This document shows positions 2,202-20,287 of a stretch of DNA of 22,492 nucleotides, piece by piece. The DNA is from a virus. The notes beneath the pieces were generated by a model, which was given only the letters and a program-made list of their open reading frames with translations, was not told the DNA's origin and made no database searches. The first letter of the stretch is position 1. Each line of letters starts with the position of its first letter. The position numbers and the translations under genes are program-made. The DNA lies in IMG/VR virus record IMGVR_UViG_3300043395_001504, positions 1 through 22,492 of that record, one strand, 5' to 3'.

Positions 2202-2359
2202 ATAACTAACCCCCGCCGGACGCTCGGGGGAGCGGCTGTTATATCCGGCGGGGGATGATGCCACCTCGGCACCAATTGACCGGCAGCCTGTCGCGGGTTC
2301 GTAGTATTCGCGCCGGGCTGCCGGGCGCGCGGCTGTGGGAGGCTAGTCACCGCGCGCAT
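2198..2359 (-). CDS. Possible 53-residue coupling ORF before rusA
   Basis: This ORF starts at an ATG at 2359, overlapping the end of the HTH gene by 17 nt, and ends at 2198 in an ATGA overlap with the rusA start. GAAGGA lies directly before the ATG, closer than ideal. The peptide is Arg/Pro-rich, starts MRAVTSLPQPRARQ and resembles no family I know. Its amino-acid make-up is what a GC-rich non-coding stretch would give. Its value may lie in being translated, since a ribosome crossing it would melt the hairpin over the rusA binding site. It fills the 141 nt otherwise empty between the HTH and rusA genes. Confidence 0.3.
   Translation of the reverse strand: MRAVTSLPQPRARQPGANTTNPRQAAGQLVPRWHHPPPDITAAPPSVRRGLVI
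2210..2254 (-). promoter_or_regulatory. Hairpin that hides the rusA ribosome binding site
   Basis: CCCCCGCCGGA (2210-2220) pairs perfectly with TCCGGCGGGGG (2244-2254), an 11-bp GC-rich stem. A smaller hairpin, CGCTC/GAGCG, is nested at 2221-2234. In the minus-strand transcript the last five bases of the outer stem are the GGGGG that serves as the rusA Shine-Dalgarno, eight bases before its ATG. Folding should therefore block rusA translation unless ribosomes arrive from upstream. No T-run follows, so it is not a simple terminator. Confidence 0.55.
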
Positions 2360-2618
2360 TCCTTCGGGGCAGATGTCCATCCAGGGTTCCTGTGCAGACA
2401 TGCGCCCAAACCTGTCCATAAGTATAATCATCGCTGCGACACATTTCCATAATGGTGGCGACCTGTGTGAGTGGCGGCGGCGTACCGGCATTCCGATACG
2501 TTAGCCACACAATCCACCGCCCAGCGGTTGGCACGGACACACCGCACCTTTCCGCCAGGTCTTTTAAAGTGAAGCCGTTGCTGCGAAGCAGACGGCGGTA
2601 GGGAACGTGATCCAACAT
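2343..2618 (-). CDS. Small helix-turn-helix DNA-binding protein, possible early regulator
   Basis: The 91-residue product has a helix-turn-helix at about residues 16-36 (FTLKDLAERCGVSVPTAGRW), of the type found in Cro/excisionase-like phage regulators. The rest is predicted helical with a basic C-terminus. It is the first gene of the minus-strand replication block and sits beside the divergent control region, the usual place for an autoregulating repressor or activator. The ATG at 2618 has no clear ribosome binding site and lies only a few bases from the putative promoter, so its message may be leaderless. I see no dimerisation or protease domain, so it is not a full CI-type repressor. Confidence 0.68.
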   Translation of the reverse strand: MLDHVPYRRLLRSNGFTLKDLAERCGVSVPTAGRWIVWLTYRNAGTPPPLTQVATIMEMCRSDDYTYGQVWAHVCTGTLDGHLPRRNARGD

Positions 2619-2620
2619 AA

Positions 2621-2653
2621 ACGATACATGGCATGATAAAAAAATCGTGTCAA
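2621..2653 (-). promoter_or_regulatory. Candidate minus-strand promoter for the replication block
   Basis: TTGACA at 2653-2648 (minus strand) matches the sigma-70 -35 box perfectly. A clear -10 box is lacking: CATGTA lies at 17-nt spacing and TATCGT (2626-2621) at 21 nt. A start here would put the first base almost at the HTH start codon, giving a leaderless or very short leader. Confidence 0.45.
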
Positions 2654-2674
2654 GCGCGTTTTTTCACTTGACGA
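2647..2674. repeat. Inverted repeat between the divergent promoters, possible operator
   Basis: CGTGTCAAG and CTTGACG face each other across 12 nt, each arm containing one of the two divergent TTGAC boxes. A dimeric HTH protein binding here could switch both promoters at once. The two -35 boxes alone would produce much of this symmetry, so the operator role is inference. Confidence 0.4.
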
Positions 2675-2731: not shown

Positions 2732-2845
2732 ATGGAATACCTTAAATACCGTTCCGCCATGTGGTGGATTTTAATGGTGCTGCAAATGATTGGCGCCGCA
2801 GCATTCATCTTTTTCTTCGCCATTCTCATTGCGTTGTTTGGGTGA
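2732..2845 (+). CDS. 37-residue single-span membrane peptide
   Basis: A short ORF with a good ribosome binding site (GGGAG, about seven bases before the ATG) opens the plus-strand cassette. After a charged start, MEYLKYRSAMWW, residues 10-36 form one continuous hydrophobic segment rich in Ile, Phe, Leu and Ala, so the product is very likely a single-pass inner-membrane peptide. No charged tail follows. Position first in an early operon fits small phage peptides that act on the host membrane or its proteins, but no function can be named. Confidence 0.6.
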   Translation: MEYLKYRSAMWWILMVLQMIGAAAFIFFFAILIALFG

Positions 2846-2849
2846 CGCC

Positions 2850-3080
2850 ATGCAGCACCCACAGCAAACAACTCTAGATGAACTGCGTCGCCGGTTAGCC
2901 GAGGCAGAAGATGAAATCGTCCGTATCGAATGGGCTGACGATATGGCGTTCACCAATGGATCATATGCCCGTGCCGTCAGGGTGCGGGATGAATTTAAAC
3001 ACGCGGTGGAAGCAGCGGAGCAAGAAGCCCGCTTGCGGGCTGCCGGTATCGCAACAGCAAGTGGAGAACCCGGACTATGA
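2850..3080 (+). CDS. 76-residue helical (coiled-coil) protein of unknown function
   Basis: I start this at the ATG at 2850, four bases after the stop of the membrane peptide gene; an in-frame upstream ATG at 2790 would overlap that gene. The product is almost entirely charged helix: LDELRRRLAEAEDEIVRIEW (residues 9-28) has a heptad-like pattern, then RVRDEFKHAVEAAEQEARLR continues it. It ends in an ATGA overlap with the next gene. No family is recognised; an oligomerising or adaptor protein is plausible. Confidence 0.62.
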   Translation: MQHPQQTTLDELRRRLAEAEDEIVRIEWADDMAFTNGSYARAVRVRDEFKHAVEAAEQEARLRAAGIATASGEPGL

Positions 3081-3400
3081 ACAAGCTTGAAATCCTGCGT
3101 ATGGCTTTCGACAAAGCCAAAGACCCGCAAGAAGCTATGAGCTTGGCGCGCCAGATGGCGGCCTTCATTGGTGAGGGACAGCCAATCCAAGGCGCCATGA
3201 TCTTGGAAGCACCGCGCCCAAAAAACAACCGCAAGCCATGGTCTAAGGCTGACATTAGGTTATTGCTGGCATCCATGAGTGCTGGGAAGTCAGTTTCTGA
3301 AATCGCCAAGGAACTGCACCGCACTACAAAGTCAGTTGAGGTGGCGATGTATAAATTGGCGACCAATCGCGAACTCGGGCCACGAAAGAAAGCCGCATGA
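3077..3400 (+). CDS. 107-residue HTH (SANT/GcrA-like) DNA-binding protein
   Basis: The N-terminal 45 residues are helical. Residues 53-95 form a DNA-binding tri-helix: KPWSKADIRLLLASMSAG opens like Myb/SANT or GcrA-type domains, followed by SVSEIAKELHRTTKSVEVAM, a recognisable helix-turn-helix. A basic tail follows. GGAG lies ten bases upstream of the ATG, and both ends overlap neighbours by four bases, so it is translated as part of a chain. A role as a phage regulator of host or early phage transcription is likely; its target is unknown. Confidence 0.65.
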   Translation: MNKLEILRMAFDKAKDPQEAMSLARQMAAFIGEGQPIQGAMILEAPRPKNNRKPWSKADIRLLLASMSAGKSVSEIAKELHRTTKSVEVAMYKLATNRELGPRKKAA

Positions 3401-3801
3401 CCCGCGCCGTAAAGGTAAACGTCCTAAAAACGGACAACCACAACCATCGGTCTGATCTGTTCGTAGAAATCGACGACATAAGCAACCGCGTCTGGAAGCC
3501 AATTGCTGCCTTCGCCAGCCTGAAGGCGGCGGCCAAGTGGTTGGAAGATGAGGGGTTCAAATACGTTCATGGCAGTAATGGGATTTGGATAAATGACGCC
3601 CCAACAAAGGGAAAGAATGCGGAGACTGACAGCGGTGTACCAACTGGCGAAGGAAGCACTAACGGACAGGGCAACACGGGTAAACAACAACAAGCCTGTG
3701 GCGTTCGACGGCTTACGGGAACACTGGGACGTTTGGGTCCGACTCTCCGTTCTGGATCGGGCAATGTGGCGAAAAATCAAATCAGTGGAAGATCAGATTA
3801 A
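3397..3801 (+). CDS. 134-residue unknown protein with overlapping, low-complexity tail
   Basis: The start overlaps the previous stop (ATGA). Residues 1-68 look like a normal small domain, with VFEIDD-like strands and a helix, AFASLKAAAKWLEDEGFKYV. From about residue 69 the protein becomes rich in Gly, Thr, Ser, Asn and Gln and overlaps the next gene in another frame for 209 nt. Either the tail is a disordered extension encoded opposite a second gene, or the true product is shorter or fused to the next frame by a +1 shift. I recognise no family. Confidence 0.5.
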   Translation: MTRAVKVNVLKTDNHNHRSDLFVEIDDISNRVWKPIAAFASLKAAAKWLEDEGFKYVHGSNGIWINDAPTKGKNAETDSGVPTGEGSTNGQGNTGKQQQACGVRRLTGTLGRLGPTLRSGSGNVAKNQISGRSD

Positions 3802-3835
3802 GGAGACATGGGAAAATGAAGACGGCAGTAATTGA
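3593..3835 (+). CDS. 80-residue helical protein overlapping the previous gene in +1 frame
   Basis: This ORF starts at the ATG at 3593, directly after an in-frame TAA, deep inside the preceding gene. The product looks like a real soluble helical protein: MTPQQRERMRRLTAVYQLAK at the start, a Trp-rich middle (HWDVWVRLSV) and a charged helix, MWRKIKSVEDQIKETW. GGGAT and GGAT motifs lie upstream but no strong binding site. It ends 20 nt inside the next gene. Of the two overlapping frames this is the better protein over 3600-3801. Confidence 0.55.
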   Translation: MTPQQRERMRRLTAVYQLAKEALTDRATRVNNNKPVAFDGLREHWDVWVRLSVLDRAMWRKIKSVEDQIKETWENEDGSN

Positions 3836-4052
3836 AAAAGACATCCCGCTTCCGGCACGCAAGCGTGGCAGGAAGCCTGGATCACGGAAATACCCATTCG
3901 CTGAACTGGCACTTGGCGATAGCTTCTTTGTGCAAGCAAAGAAGGTGATGTCTGTCTATTCGGCAGTAAGCCGCGCCAACAAAGCCTATTCCCCCAAGAA
4001 ATTTACCGCCCGCAACATCGACAACGGTGTCCGTATCTGGCGGTATGTGTAA
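3816..4052 (+). CDS. 78-residue conserved small phage protein with basic N-terminus
   Basis: AAGGAG lies about 11 bases before the ATG. Residues 12-25 are basic (ARKRGRKPGSRKYPF, AT-hook-like), followed by FAELALGDSFFVQ, a motif I associate with a widespread small phage protein, then a helix with Ser/Ala/Lys and a closing strand VRIWRYV. It is probably a compact alpha/beta nucleic-acid-binding or protein-binding domain; the closing IWRY strand is typical of such small folds. No function is established. Confidence 0.6.
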   Translation: MKTAVIEKDIPLPARKRGRKPGSRKYPFAELALGDSFFVQAKKVMSVYSAVSRANKAYSPKKFTARNIDNGVRIWRYV

Positions 4053-4071
4053 CGCGGCATAGTGCCACGCT

Positions 4072-4126
4072 CCCCCGCGCCAACCGGAAAGGAATCTCGC
4101 CTGTTTTGACCGAACATGCGCGGGGG
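4072..4126 (+). repeat. Inverted repeat in the plus-strand leader region
   Basis: CCCCCGCGC (4072-4080) and GCGCGGGGG (4118-4126) are perfect 9-bp arms separated by 37 nt, in the 94-nt gap before the gene at 4147. The ribosome binding site AAGGAG (4134-4139) lies just outside the right arm. It may form a long-looped hairpin or bind a protein. No T-run follows, so termination is unlikely. Confidence 0.45.
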
Positions 4127-4146
4127 CCATAACAAGGAGAAATACC

Positions 4147-4362
4147 ATGCAAATACAAGCCGAAAACACCGCATCAGTTGCGGCGGAAACCGTTGAAGCC
4201 AAGGCGCAGTTGCAGGTTGCGCTGGCCCGCATCGCGGAATTGGAAGCGGCGCTGCGAAACCTTGACGACCTAATCGTGGATTTGGACATGGGCTTCAGGG
4301 AACTGTACCAAGTATCAGATTTTATCGACGCCGCGCTGGCAGGAGGGAAGAAAGATGGATGA
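4147..4362 (+). CDS. 71-residue coiled-coil protein of unknown function
   Basis: AAGGAG sits eight bases before the ATG, the best ribosome binding site in the cassette. Residues 8-45 form an Ala/Glu/Leu-rich helix (VEAKAQLQVALARIAELEAA) with a clear heptad pattern, followed by an acidic turn and a second helix. It overlaps the next gene by 8 nt, which implies coupled expression. It resembles small accessory coiled-coil proteins common in phage early regions; no family is assigned. Confidence 0.62.
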   Translation: MQIQAENTASVAAETVEAKAQLQVALARIAELEAALRNLDDLIVDLDMGFRELYQVSDFIDAALAGGKKDG

Positions 4363-4759
4363 GGACCAACCAGACCTCTTCACTTATGAACCGCCACCAC
4401 AAGACCCGGCTTTACCACCAATGCGCCACGGCCCTGGGAAAGCCGTGCATCCAGAGGTGCGGCGACAGCGGGAAGCATATATAGAAGCCGCCTTGGAACG
4501 CGGCGAAACCCTGGTGCAGATTGCCCGCGCTGCTGGCGTCGCGGTGGACACTGTAAAACGGTGGCGTGACAAAACACATTTTTCGACGAAATTTGAAAAT
4601 AGATTTGATAAAGAGCGTAAATGCCTGTCTTGCCTGGAAATGTTCTGGTCAGAAGGCCCGCATAACAGAATGTGTGCGGATTGCCGACTGAAGAAAGGCA
4701 CCAATCCATATGAACCTGGCGCACATGGTACGTCTGGCAGGCAGAGGCAGCGGTTATAA
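4355..4759 (+). CDS. HTH plus zinc-ribbon DNA-binding protein
   Basis: This 134-residue protein joins two nucleic-acid-binding parts. Residues 51-72 (TLVQIARAAGVAVDTVKRW) form a helix-turn-helix. Residues 90-110 hold a zinc ribbon with C90, C93, C107 and C110 in a CX2C-X13-CX2C arrangement around SEGPHNRMC, a motif repeatedly seen in small phage zinc proteins. The N-terminus is Pro-rich and acidic. It is the last plus-strand gene and ends six bases before the shared terminator. A transcription regulator acting on phage or host promoters is the likeliest role; the target is not visible. Confidence 0.65.
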   Translation: MDEDQPDLFTYEPPPQDPALPPMRHGPGKAVHPEVRRQREAYIEAALERGETLVQIARAAGVAVDTVKRWRDKTHFSTKFENRFDKERKCLSCLEMFWSEGPHNRMCADCRLKKGTNPYEPGAHGTSGRQRQRL

Positions 4760-4764
4760 AAAAA

Positions 4765-4785
4765 GACCCGGCACAAGGCCGGGTC
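4765..4785 (-). terminator. Intrinsic terminator of the late operon
   Basis: GACCCGGC and GCCGGGTC (with the ends pairing GACCCGGC-acaag-GCCGGGTC) form an 8-bp GC-rich stem with a 5-nt loop. On the minus strand it is followed by an uninterrupted run of eight T residues. It lies between the convergent operons; the plus strand has only AGTTT after the stem, so it should work mainly on the late (minus) transcript. Confidence 0.85.
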
Positions 4786-4838: not shown

Positions 4839-4997
4839 TCATTTCTTGCGGGCTTTTCCAGCCTCAGAAAGTGCAATGGCCAGGGCCTGCTTTTCTGATT
4901 TGACCATAGGACCTTTCTTGCTGCCGGAATGCAGTTTTCCGGCTTTGTATTCGCCCATAACCTTACCGATCTTTTTCTGCGCCTTAGTCTGTTTCAT
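4839..4997 (-). CDS. DUF6496-like basic small protein
   Basis: A 52-residue, lysine-rich protein too short for many ORF callers. It begins MKQTKAQKKIGKVMGEYKAG and continues with KLHSGSKKGP and a helix, KQALAIALSEAGKARKK. I recognise this as the DUF6496 pattern, common in phages and bacteria, whose function is unknown; the LHSGSK and QALAIALSEAG segments are its hallmarks. The start overlaps the endolysin stop (ATGA), so it is translated with the lysis genes. It is the final gene of the late operon. DNA binding or a virion role would suit the charge, but neither is shown. Confidence 0.8.
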   Translation of the reverse strand: MKQTKAQKKIGKVMGEYKAGKLHSGSKKGPMVKSEKQALAIALSEAGKARKK

Positions 4998-5515
4998 GTG
5001 AAACTCTCCACCATATCTTTTGCCTTGGCTTCGACTTCATCGACGCGGCGAAGCCATCCGCGTCCAAACACATCAAAGGTTTTCAGCGACTTATAAAACC
5101 GCCGCCGCTCTTCCGCGTACTGGCGGATTAGAGATAGTGTGTCCTGTTCCGCAACCGCTGCCAAAGTGCGCGGCCCCAAGACTCCATCTGGCGTACTGCC
5201 GACAATTTCTTGAAGCATTCGCACAGAACGACTAACGCCTGCATTAACGGCCATATCAAACACAGATAAATCAAGGCCAGAAGATAACCTATCGCCAGCA
5301 ACGCGGCCCCAATAGTTGCGGTGATAAATGGCGTTAATTTGTTCATCGCTAATATTCCTGAGTTCATCTTTTGTGGCTGGGCGCCCAAGGAAATTACTGA
5401 AAGTGGCTAGTGTAACGCCCTTCATAGTGGCGCCACCAGGGTCATCTTTATGGTCAGACCATCCCCCCTCATGGTGAAGCACTACTTCCAAGCAAGCGGG
5501 AAAATTGTCTTTCAT
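4994..5515 (-). CDS. Endolysin, GH108-type muramidase
   Basis: The 173-residue enzyme cleaves peptidoglycan to release progeny. HHEGGWSDHKDDPGGATMKG (residues 14-33) is the glycosyl hydrolase 108 signature, with E16 as the catalytic acid. YWGRVAGDRL (68-77) and the FDMAVNAGVSRSVRMLQ stretch (86-102) follow, then a C-terminal peptidoglycan-binding part with TPDGVLGPRTL (108-118). Length and order match the family. There is no signal peptide, so it needs a holin. The ATG at 5515 overlaps the holin stop by four bases; longer in-frame starts would run into the holin gene. Confidence 0.92.
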   Translation of the reverse strand: MKDNFPACLEVVLHHEGGWSDHKDDPGGATMKGVTLATFSNFLGRPATKDELRNISDEQINAIYHRNYWGRVAGDRLSSGLDLSVFDMAVNAGVSRSVRMLQEIVGSTPDGVLGPRTLAAVAEQDTLSLIRQYAEERRRFYKSLKTFDVFGRGWLRRVDEVEAKAKDMVESFT

Positions 5516-5904
5516 CGGCGCCGCATTGCCTCCGCCACCATTGGCGCTATCTTTTCTGCCGAACGCCCAATGACGTAGCCACCCAGCCCGATCTCCACGA
5601 TACCCCATAACTTCAGCGCCTCTGCTTCCGAAATACCTGGCGCGCTATAGCCCATCCACCGGGCCACAATCATCCCCGTTAGGGTCAACATCACAATCGG
5701 ACGCCATGTGGCGGTGAGCCAATGCTCTGACTGTGCCTCTGTCTTTACGATATCAGCGGCGGCTTGTTCAATCTGGCTGCTGCGCTGCATGAGCAAAAGC
5801 TGTGCTTCGGCTTCTGCCTTGGCCTGGGCTTCTCCATCTGGGACCACACGGCGGATAACATCGCTAAGAATCGGCCCAAGAACGGGCAACAGGGCGGCAA
5901 TCAT
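5512..5904 (-). CDS. Holin, 3TM (GTA-type) family
   Basis: This 130-residue membrane protein permeabilises the inner membrane so the endolysin can reach the wall. It opens with a hydrophobic helix (MIAALLPVLGPILSDVI), then a long Gln/Glu/Ala helix, then SEHWLTATWRPIVMLTLTGM (about 59-78), the characteristic E-S-x-W-x4-WRP region of 3TM holins, and a third span (about 97-113). The C-terminus is basic (MRRR). It overlaps both neighbours by four bases, giving the usual holin-endolysin pair. The family is best known from alphaproteobacterial gene transfer agents and phages. Confidence 0.87.
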   Translation of the reverse strand: MIAALLPVLGPILSDVIRRVVPDGEAQAKAEAEAQLLLMQRSSQIEQAAADIVKTEAQSEHWLTATWRPIVMLTLTGMIVARWMGYSAPGISEAEALKLWGIVEIGLGGYVIGRSAEKIAPMVAEAMRRR

Positions 5905-19660: not shown

Positions 19661-20287
19661 TTATTCACCCTTCGCCGCAAACGCATGGGCATTAGAGAAC
19701 TCAAACGCCCCAGAATGGCGCACATCCTGGCTTAGATCGTGGTCGATAAATACCTCAAAACCCATTTCCCGCGCGCCCCGGCAAAACCAAATGTCTTCGC
19801 CACTATATACACCATTTTGGTAGTGAATGTGGAACCAAGGCTTCGGCATCTTCTCAAAAACCTCCGCCTTAATCGCCATTAAGCCCATACCAACCGCCGC
19901 AACAGCCTGTAAGCCCGTGTCATCAGGGCCAGAATATACCCGCTCTTGGCTACTATCGTCAGCAAACGCCACAGACCGTAAAGGTAGTTTTCTTGTGCAG
20001 TAATTAGCTGCAACAATATCCTTATCAGCCATTAGCAACTTGAAAATAGAATCCTTTGGGAATCGCATATCGGCATCAATAAAGATGATATGGGTGGCGC
20101 CCGCATCCAAAGACGCCTGAGCCAGTTCCTGGCGCTGGTTTACAATCAGCGTCCCTTGGTTCTGGAACAGCAGAACCCGGTCATTGGTAGAAGCCGTATG
20201 GGCCGCCATACACCGGGCCAAATCAAAGGCAAACCCGCTATCCACCACATCCCGGCAAGGGACACACACTGAAATTGTCTTTCTCAT
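19661..20287 (-). CDS. Glycosyltransferase-like (GT-A) protein in the capsid block
   Basis: The 208-residue protein has a GT-A fold signature. The N-terminus (KTISVCVPCRDVVDSGFA) is the nucleotide-binding strand and loop. THIIFIDADMRFPKD (65-79) holds the D-x-D metal site, D71-D73. VAAVGMGLMAIKAEVFEKM (129-147) and GEDIWFCRGAREMGF (163-177) with E164-D165 complete the usual active-site order, and H191 may be a last ligand. All key residues are intact, so activity is plausible. It could modify virion proteins or host surface sugars. The start overlaps the preceding stop (TAATG), so it is made with the capsid proteins. Confidence 0.8.
   Translation of the reverse strand: MRKTISVCVPCRDVVDSGFAFDLARCMAAHTASTNDRVLLFQNQGTLIVNQRQELAQASLDAGATHIIFIDADMRFPKDSIFKLLMADKDIVAANYCTRKLPLRSVAFADDSSQERVYSGPDDTGLQAVAAVGMGLMAIKAEVFEKMPKPWFHIHYQNGVYSGEDIWFCRGAREMGFEVFIDHDLSQDVRHSGAFEFSNAHAFAAKGE

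Follow-up and report, generated by a model that had tools for sequence, protein, structure and literature searches.

A variable plus-strand gene cassette in a podovirus-type phage, a candidate accessory early operon resembling the exo-xis region of lambda

The window analysed here, the whole of IMG/VR record IMGVR_UViG_3300043395_001504 (G000), is a linear fragment of 22,492 bases with a GC content of 54%. Between two blocks of minus-strand genes it carries a cassette of eight plus-strand open reading frames (ORFs; g1 to g8, positions 2732-4759), and the recognisable flanking genes are all on the minus strand. We consider it rather probable that this cassette is an accessory early operon working like the exo-xis region of the lambda PL operon. 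The reading is based on the genes, their order and variability, the sequence of their junctions, the slot that they occupy and an overlapping frame that is open, all of which were observed directly. On one side, the minus-strand genes encode an SU10-type capsid protein, a scaffold, tail proteins, a metallophosphoesterase, a GTA-type holin and a GH108 endolysin; on the other side they encode a RusA resolvase, a PD-(D/E)XK exonuclease and a 229-amino acid (aa) protein. Judged by these genes, the phage is of the podovirus type.

Gene order, variability and junctions of the cassette

Starting from g8 and the adjoining genes, two near-identical contigs (L003 and L002) were found. A scan with the adjoining exonuclease then yielded 32 loci, and 13 of these extend into the cassette and could be used. 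The window, L003 and these 13 are the 15 loci compared here. Excluded from the 32 were L112 (L003's own record), L098 (which holds HTHm, the gene for a helix-turn-helix (HTH) protein next to the cassette, only in part) and 17 other loci, in which the contig ends too early or belongs to another phage. Near-identical loci (L103/L105, L108/L109, L104/L107 and L002/L003) were tallied as separate loci, so the counts out of 15 are not independent; about three distinct lineages are present, namely the window, L003 and the rest. No near-identical phage was found among the named records.

The original prediction, made from the letters of the window, described eight small genes on the strand opposite to their neighbours, and the ORF calls bear this out. 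Chance ORFs were rejected as an explanation, since L003/L002 and the 13 further loci hold the complete set with its order and orientation preserved, and the eight ORFs are, on this comparative evidence, real genes of one operon. The order across the 15 loci is g1, g2, an optional g3, the pair g4/g5, g6 where present, zero to four modules, and g8. The modules are interchangeable, mostly coiled-coil genes, and the size of their array was determined in 13 loci: between g6 (or g5) and g8 no module is found in L003, L099 and L114, one in the window (g7), L101 and L113, two in L104 and L107, three in L103 and L105, and four in L108, L109 and L111. The cassette is not invariant outside the array either, as g3 is present in 8 of the 15 loci and cleanly absent from 7, and g6 is present in 12 of the 13 loci reached, being absent from L003 and its duplicate L002. 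An additional gene of 77 aa lies between g1 and g2 in six ORF-listed loci of the larger group (split in one); neither the window nor L003 has it. Module 1 of L101 is a mosaic: residues 1-39 are 82% like module 1 of L111 and residues 33-81 are 92% like module 2 of L104. The variation is best read as whole-gene exchange at conserved junctions.

The modules end in LGEKE or a near variant despite their differing bodies; the exception is module 2 of L111, which ends otherwise. The encoding sequence, CTG GGA GAA AAG GAA TGA, contains a Shine-Dalgarno sequence and a TGA/ATG overlap with the next gene, and the g7/g8 junction of the window, GGAGGGAAGAAAGATGGATGA, has the same design. In the 13 distinct tails of the form GEK[EQ]-stop the Gly codon is GGA in 13/13, versus 57 of the 594 Gly codons in the flanking genes, and because the junction tails share ancestry these are not 13 independent events. 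The tail of g2, ASGEP, has the same role for the gene that follows, g3 or, in loci lacking it, g4, with GGA or GGG as its Gly codon in 15/15 loci. A search of 10 records with a 26-base junction consensus was positive in 3, within the cassette only, and five shuffled copies of G006 gave no match.

A K/R-G-E end is found on all Ea22 proteins compared in PMC7093339, where it is called 'of unknown significance'. Our own sample consisted of 15 Ea22/Ead genes of non-Stx phages. Seven have an exact KGE end, coded AAAGGAGAG or AAGGGGGA(A/G), and that of phiV10 has KGGE. In 12 of the 15 records the Ea22/Ead gene is directly followed by another annotated gene (-4 to +1 nucleotides (nt)), and in all 12 a stretch of 4 to 7 bases within the last Ea22/Ead codons matches the Shine-Dalgarno sequence, even in those with other residues (HK140, HK106, CUS-3, ES18 and ev017). 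Neither the tail nor an abutting gene was found in mEpX1 and D2. The Ea22 gene of lambda itself (L152, lambda 29847-30395) has kept the AAAGGAGAG tail, with the next annotated gene 191 nt away, as if the following gene had been lost. The K/R-G-E tail of the lambdoid proteins could thus simply reflect a Shine-Dalgarno sequence. No paper joining ea22 and Shine-Dalgarno was found in a literature search, and priority is uncertain, as one relevant paper was outside the reach of the search. A role of the module tails as a peptide signal is disfavoured, because the rare GGA codon is used in 13/13 and the lambdoid tails keep the Shine-Dalgarno sequence while their residues change.

A wider idea, towards which we are slightly sceptical, is that gene-cassette arrays free of a recombinase are a way in which phages build early operons. 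The unit of exchange would run from one embedded Shine-Dalgarno/stop-start junction to the next, with the coiled coil as a second joint for heads and C-domains, and because of this every module, whatever its function, would have the same few end residues. LGEKE, the K/R-G-E of the lambdoid Ea22 and the ASGEPG of g2 would then be translation signals and not protein motifs, and the arrangement would be a general device by which unrelated phages keep a shifting set of host-directed genes in step with an operon that stays constant. If this were general, the constant tails could serve as markers for early accessory arrays of other phages. A comparable signal is the SAS (start-associated sequence) of Cluster K mycobacteriophages, described in PMC3203893 as an intergenic 13-mer with a Shine-Dalgarno sequence, 3-7 bp before the start of many small early genes. 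Both are short, conserved Shine-Dalgarno sequences just ahead of many small early genes; unlike SAS, the repeat of the cassette is part of the preceding gene, at its 3' end, includes the stop/start overlap and was seen in the cassette only.

The slot of the cassette and its control region

The first gene of the RusA/exonuclease operon, in the position of Cro, is HTHm (2343..2618, minus strand), coding for a protein of 91 aa. It matches HTH_23 (E 2e-4) and HTH_3 (E 6.2e-4), both under the Pfam cut-offs, and is found in all 15 loci with the stretch, the L003 protein being 87% identical. The gap between HTHm and g1 contains a putative divergent promoter core (2648..2673), in which TTGACA on the minus strand (2653-2648) faces TTGACG on the plus strand (2668-2673). 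The core, GTCAAGCGYRTTTTTTC followed by TTGACG, could be aligned in 15/15 loci, and GTCAAGCG..TTTTTTC followed by TTGACG is common to all of them, giving two facing -35-like boxes. A pattern of the core matched exactly once in each of six cassette records (6/6) and in none of five relatives lacking the cassette, among them G011, a short contig in which the place is perhaps not covered. The plus-strand site scored 9/12 in a sigma-70 consensus scan. The gap also holds a GTCAAG/CTTGAC inverted repeat, the right half of which differs by one base in L101 and L099; it is likely to be an operator.

At the other end of the cassette, a hairpin terminator is predicted (4765..4785) between g8 and the convergent minus-strand genes, with the T-run on the minus-strand side. 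A perfect-stem search found a stem at the same site after g8 in 11/13 loci. The gene convergent with g8, at the end of the lysis operon, encodes a DUF6496 protein (4839-4997, minus strand; E 4.1e-9) and is kept in all loci covering the site.

Profiles of g5 and g8 were used to search other phages. The g5 profile matched 15 of the 34 records of the exonuclease set, which are the 15 holding the cassette stretch (positive control), and neither profile matched any of 43 other records (34 capsid relatives, being the longer contigs of 80 capsid-related loci, 3 named phages and 6 contigs with a distant exonuclease). One of the negative records, G013 (35,290 bases, GC 66%), encodes a capsid protein 89% identical to that of the window. 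On the opposite strand, between the end of the lysis genes and the exonuclease operon, G013 has an S24-type repressor (PF00717, E 1.2e-9) and a tyrosine integrase (PF00589, E 6.5e-20), and the repressor is faced by a small HTH ORF (32168-32431, minus strand). PF00589 and PF00717 were found in none of the other 13 records searched, and the window and the cassette records were negative for both. Two of the cassette genomes, G003 and G004, have direct terminal repeats (40-base check) and look complete, so the absence of an integrase from these two is not due to a missing end. L148, a contig of a Xanthobacteraceae metagenome-assembled genome, has an S24-like protein on the strand opposite a related exonuclease (E 8.9e-5, just under the Pfam cut-off). 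G013 and L148 are suggestive of alphaproteobacterial relatives.

By comparison of the gene maps, the cassette occupies the slot in which the temperate relative G013 keeps its CI repressor and integrase; the replacement may have gone in either direction. In G013 this place is taken by a CI-type repressor and an integrase, and g5 and g8 are missing. This puts the cassette on the side of a Cro/CI-type divergent promoter that belongs to lysogeny. It shares with the lysogeny module of G013 the slot, the strand and the divergence from a small HTH gene, and differs from it in that none of the cassette genes matches a repressor or integrase family. Together with its order and variability, the absence of the cassette from capsid relatives agrees with the original view of an accessory operon, on the opposite strand, of genes for neither virion nor replication.

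The overlapping pair g4/g5 and the other gene products

Genes g4 (3397-3801) and g5 (3593-3835) overlap by 209 nt in the window, as had been noticed originally, and in all 14 loci reached (14/14) the g4 frame is open across g5 over 194-224 nt. The g4 protein has a folded N-terminal domain (residues ~3-67) and a tail overprinted on g5, and g5 (80 aa) starts in a different frame at the end of the g4 fold. The AF2 model of g4 (mean pLDDT 60.1, from a shallow alignment of 10 rows) has a beta-beta-beta-alpha-beta domain to residue ~67, with pLDDT mostly ~80 in residues 1-67 and ~40 in an unfolded tail (70-134). When g5 codons were resampled under the codon usage of the neighbouring genes, ~3.3 stops were expected per sequence, and all four representatives were stop-free in at most 5e-5 of 20,000 simulations. 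T at the third positions of g5 is rare (6.5% versus 20-23%), but it is also low (16/191) where no stop would result. The synonymous sites of g5 evolve about as fast in the overlap as elsewhere (p<0.05 in 1/6 sequence pairs), and of 6674 off-frame windows of 69 codons in the adjoining genes, 405 are open. A strong claim of dual coding is weakened by these three controls, and the g4 tail is probably translated, with its sequence hardly constrained.

Two other explanations of the pair were considered. The g4 frame over g5 could be an untranslated or useless overhang, kept open by codon bias and not by dual coding. The synonymous rates and the open off-frame windows speak for this, whereas the frame being open in every locus reached, the number of stops expected in the simulations and the scarcity of T (with the reservation already given) speak against it, and we regard an overhang as the less likely explanation. 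Alternatively g4/g5 could be a toxin-antitoxin-like or otherwise coupled pair to which the other genes are passengers. The two are indeed inseparable, overlapping in all 14 loci, but no toxin-antitoxin family was matched and the g4 tail is predicted to be disordered, so that such a pair seems very improbable.

The labels originally given to the other products also hold. The first gene, g1 (2732-2845), found in 15/15 loci, encodes a hydrophobic, single-span membrane peptide of 37 aa (YLKxRSAxWW, then hydrophobic residues), and g2 (2850-3080), also found in 15/15, a helical protein of 76 aa whose last residues, ASGEPG, encode the Shine-Dalgarno sequence for the next gene. The optional g3 (3077-3400) encodes an HTH protein of 107 aa that matches phrog_323 ('transcriptional regulator, D5-like', E 3.5e-7) as well as other HTH families. 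An ORF with two g3-like HTH repeats was seen in the replication operon of G013 (L140:10753-11286, minus strand), on the far side of the divergent promoter. The single module of the window, g7 (4147-4362), encodes a coiled-coil protein, and its N-terminal 54 aa are 36% identical to module 3 of L111 (E 5.6e-8; BLASTP among 13 sequences with composition correction off). The constant last gene, g8 (4355-4759; 13/13 loci reached), encodes an HTH and zinc-ribbon (C-x2-C ... C-x2-C) protein of 134 aa, residues 73-121 of which match phrog_13335 with the ribbon covered (E 4.5e-11; PHROGs have no curated cut-off). The AF2 model of g8 (mean pLDDT 62.5, alignment of 11 rows, also shallow) has helices at 33-48, 53-60 and 64-72, predicted to form a three-helix HTH at pLDDT ~73-84, and strands at 86-89 and 96-99, forming a short beta-hairpin at the cysteines.

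The eight genes were originally described as unknown; g6 (3816-4052) is no orphan and belongs to DUF7303 (PF23978; E 3.5e-8, 33.6 bits versus a gathering score of 27.0). This family, itself without an assigned function, has relatives in 72 phage records, and a literature search found no paper naming it. An RGR(P/K) motif is present near the N-terminus of g6 and its relatives; RGRP/RGRK resembles an AT-hook. No convincing family match was obtained for g1, g2, g4, g5 and g7 in Pfam, PHROGs, PADLOC and further profile scans, and the HTH matches of g3, g8 and HTHm are all under the Pfam gathering scores. By these searches, not every gene maps to a known housekeeping family of phages. Foldseek found no match for the g4 and g8 models at E<=0.001 (the best for g8 had E 0.32, its matches being mostly DNA-binding proteins), and a sequence search of solved structures with g8, g4 and g6 gave nothing convincing. 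Among phage records there were no matches for g3, g4 and the exonuclease, and one weak partial match for g8 (Thiobacimonas phage vB_ThpS-P1, E 1e-3). In bacterial genomes, g8 was found in none of 120 candidate stretches, and the exonuclease had 5 relatives among 211 stretches, none of which carried cassette genes.

Comparison with lambda and alternative roles of the cassette

According to PMC10834534 and PMC8614690, the exo-xis genes of lambda are driven by PL, are among the earliest transcribed, alter the development of host and phage and are not needed for replication. As these two papers and PMC7093339 describe it, the region has a conserved block followed by variable genes; in Ea22 a coiled coil lies between a variable head and a variable C-domain, and Ea8.5 is a homeodomain/zinc-finger hybrid. 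The cassette resembles this region (orf60a, orf63, orf61, orf73, ea22, ea8.5) in having small accessory genes, putatively early, near the exonuclease gene; in both, their operon diverges from the one on the Cro side. Both combine a conserved block with variable genes, among them mosaic coiled-coil proteins such as Ea22 with its variable head and C-domain, and a hybrid DNA-binding/zinc protein, and gene tails bearing the next Shine-Dalgarno sequence are found in the cassette and in the lambdoid Ea22/Ead genes. The two differ in that no sequence relation was detectable, that the cassette operon faces the exonuclease and does not contain it, and that the cassette has no integrase or CI nearby and belongs to a podovirus-type genome with an SU10-type capsid. 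As judged from the sequence comparisons, the cassette is not a member of the exo-xis family by homology; exo-xis is the nearest known system by position, divergence, gene size, kinds of genes and mode of variation.

In the scheme that we infer, an active promoter at 2668-2697 facing that of the RusA/exonuclease operon across the short conserved inverted repeat would drive rightward transcription at an early time. HTHm would probably bind the inverted repeat and shut both operons down. The constant g1, g2, g4/g5, g6 and g8 and the optional g3 and g7-type products would act on the host, and on the transcription of the phage, soon after entry, with g1 acting at the membrane, g8, as a DNA-binding protein, the likeliest regulator of transcription, and the g7-type coiled-coil modules the likeliest changeable adaptors to varying host partners. 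With the next Shine-Dalgarno sequence lying in the end codons of each upstream gene, whose stop overlaps the next start, a module could be swapped without harm to its neighbour. Host takeover, proposed originally, would be a possible role by analogy with lambda exo-xis.

Several results weigh against this scheme, the shared ancestry of the junction tails among them. The promoter consensus scan gave no excess over shuffled sequences (3 found versus 4.6 expected in the 7 kb scanned), and the case for the promoter therefore rests on conservation and not on consensus. Searches for PF00589 and PF00717 found neither an integrase nor a repressor in the cassette lineage, and a role in lysis/lysogeny like that of Ea22 may therefore not apply. 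Homology to exo-xis was checked for two named genes, Ea22/Ead and Ea8.5: comparison of g8 with Ea8.5 gave an hhalign probability of 1.8%, and the search of eight modules against Pfam gave no Ead/Ea22 match at E<=0.1 and no family above cut-off.

The cassette occupies precisely the slot and strand of CI and diverges from a Cro-like gene, a position that would also suit a lysogeny or immunity module that has escaped recognition, in which g3 or g8 represses the HTHm operon in place of CI and the prophage is maintained without a tyrosine integrase. We hold this to be unlikely, as g3 is missing in 7/15 loci, g8 is the last gene and far from the promoter, and the integrase and S24 repressor families are absent from the cassette records, serine recombinases and plasmid partition genes lying outside that search. 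Comparably unlikely, in our estimate, is that the variable genes serve counter-defence or superinfection exclusion and that the array is a counter-defence island. A single locus holding zero to four genes that can be exchanged, and whose heads and tails are mosaic, is typical of conflict genes, and g1 is a small membrane protein; against this, no match to any described family points that way, and modules are missing altogether from 3 of 13 loci. The anti-defence role suggested originally was supported by no result: none of the eight cassette proteins matched PADLOC-DB 2.0.0 at E<=0.1, which tests counter-defence little, because this database holds models of defence and not of counter-defence. 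The cassette may or may not have such a role. Whichever role applies, an unlabelled patch of a metagenomic phage has become a defined locus that can be compared between phages, with a constant core of functionally unassigned genes, an exchangeable middle, one promoter core and, in a relative, a CI/integrase slot.

Some minor observations were made elsewhere in the genomes. Besides the capsid protein (89% identical), G013 (L139/L140) and the window have other head-tail genes in common, but identity is no more than 39-48% for the phosphoesterase and the exonuclease; from these identities, a recent exchange of head genes between a temperate and an apparently lytic lineage is indicated. No RNA elements or tRNA were found. 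In their longest reading, the endolysin and holin ORFs (4994-5608 and 5512-5904, minus strand) overlap by 93 nt, and the endolysin start is likely internal, at 5515 (minus strand). Among the tail genes lies a gene for a glycosyltransferase-like protein of 208 aa (19661-20287, minus strand), which is kept in distant capsid relatives at 51-92% identity.

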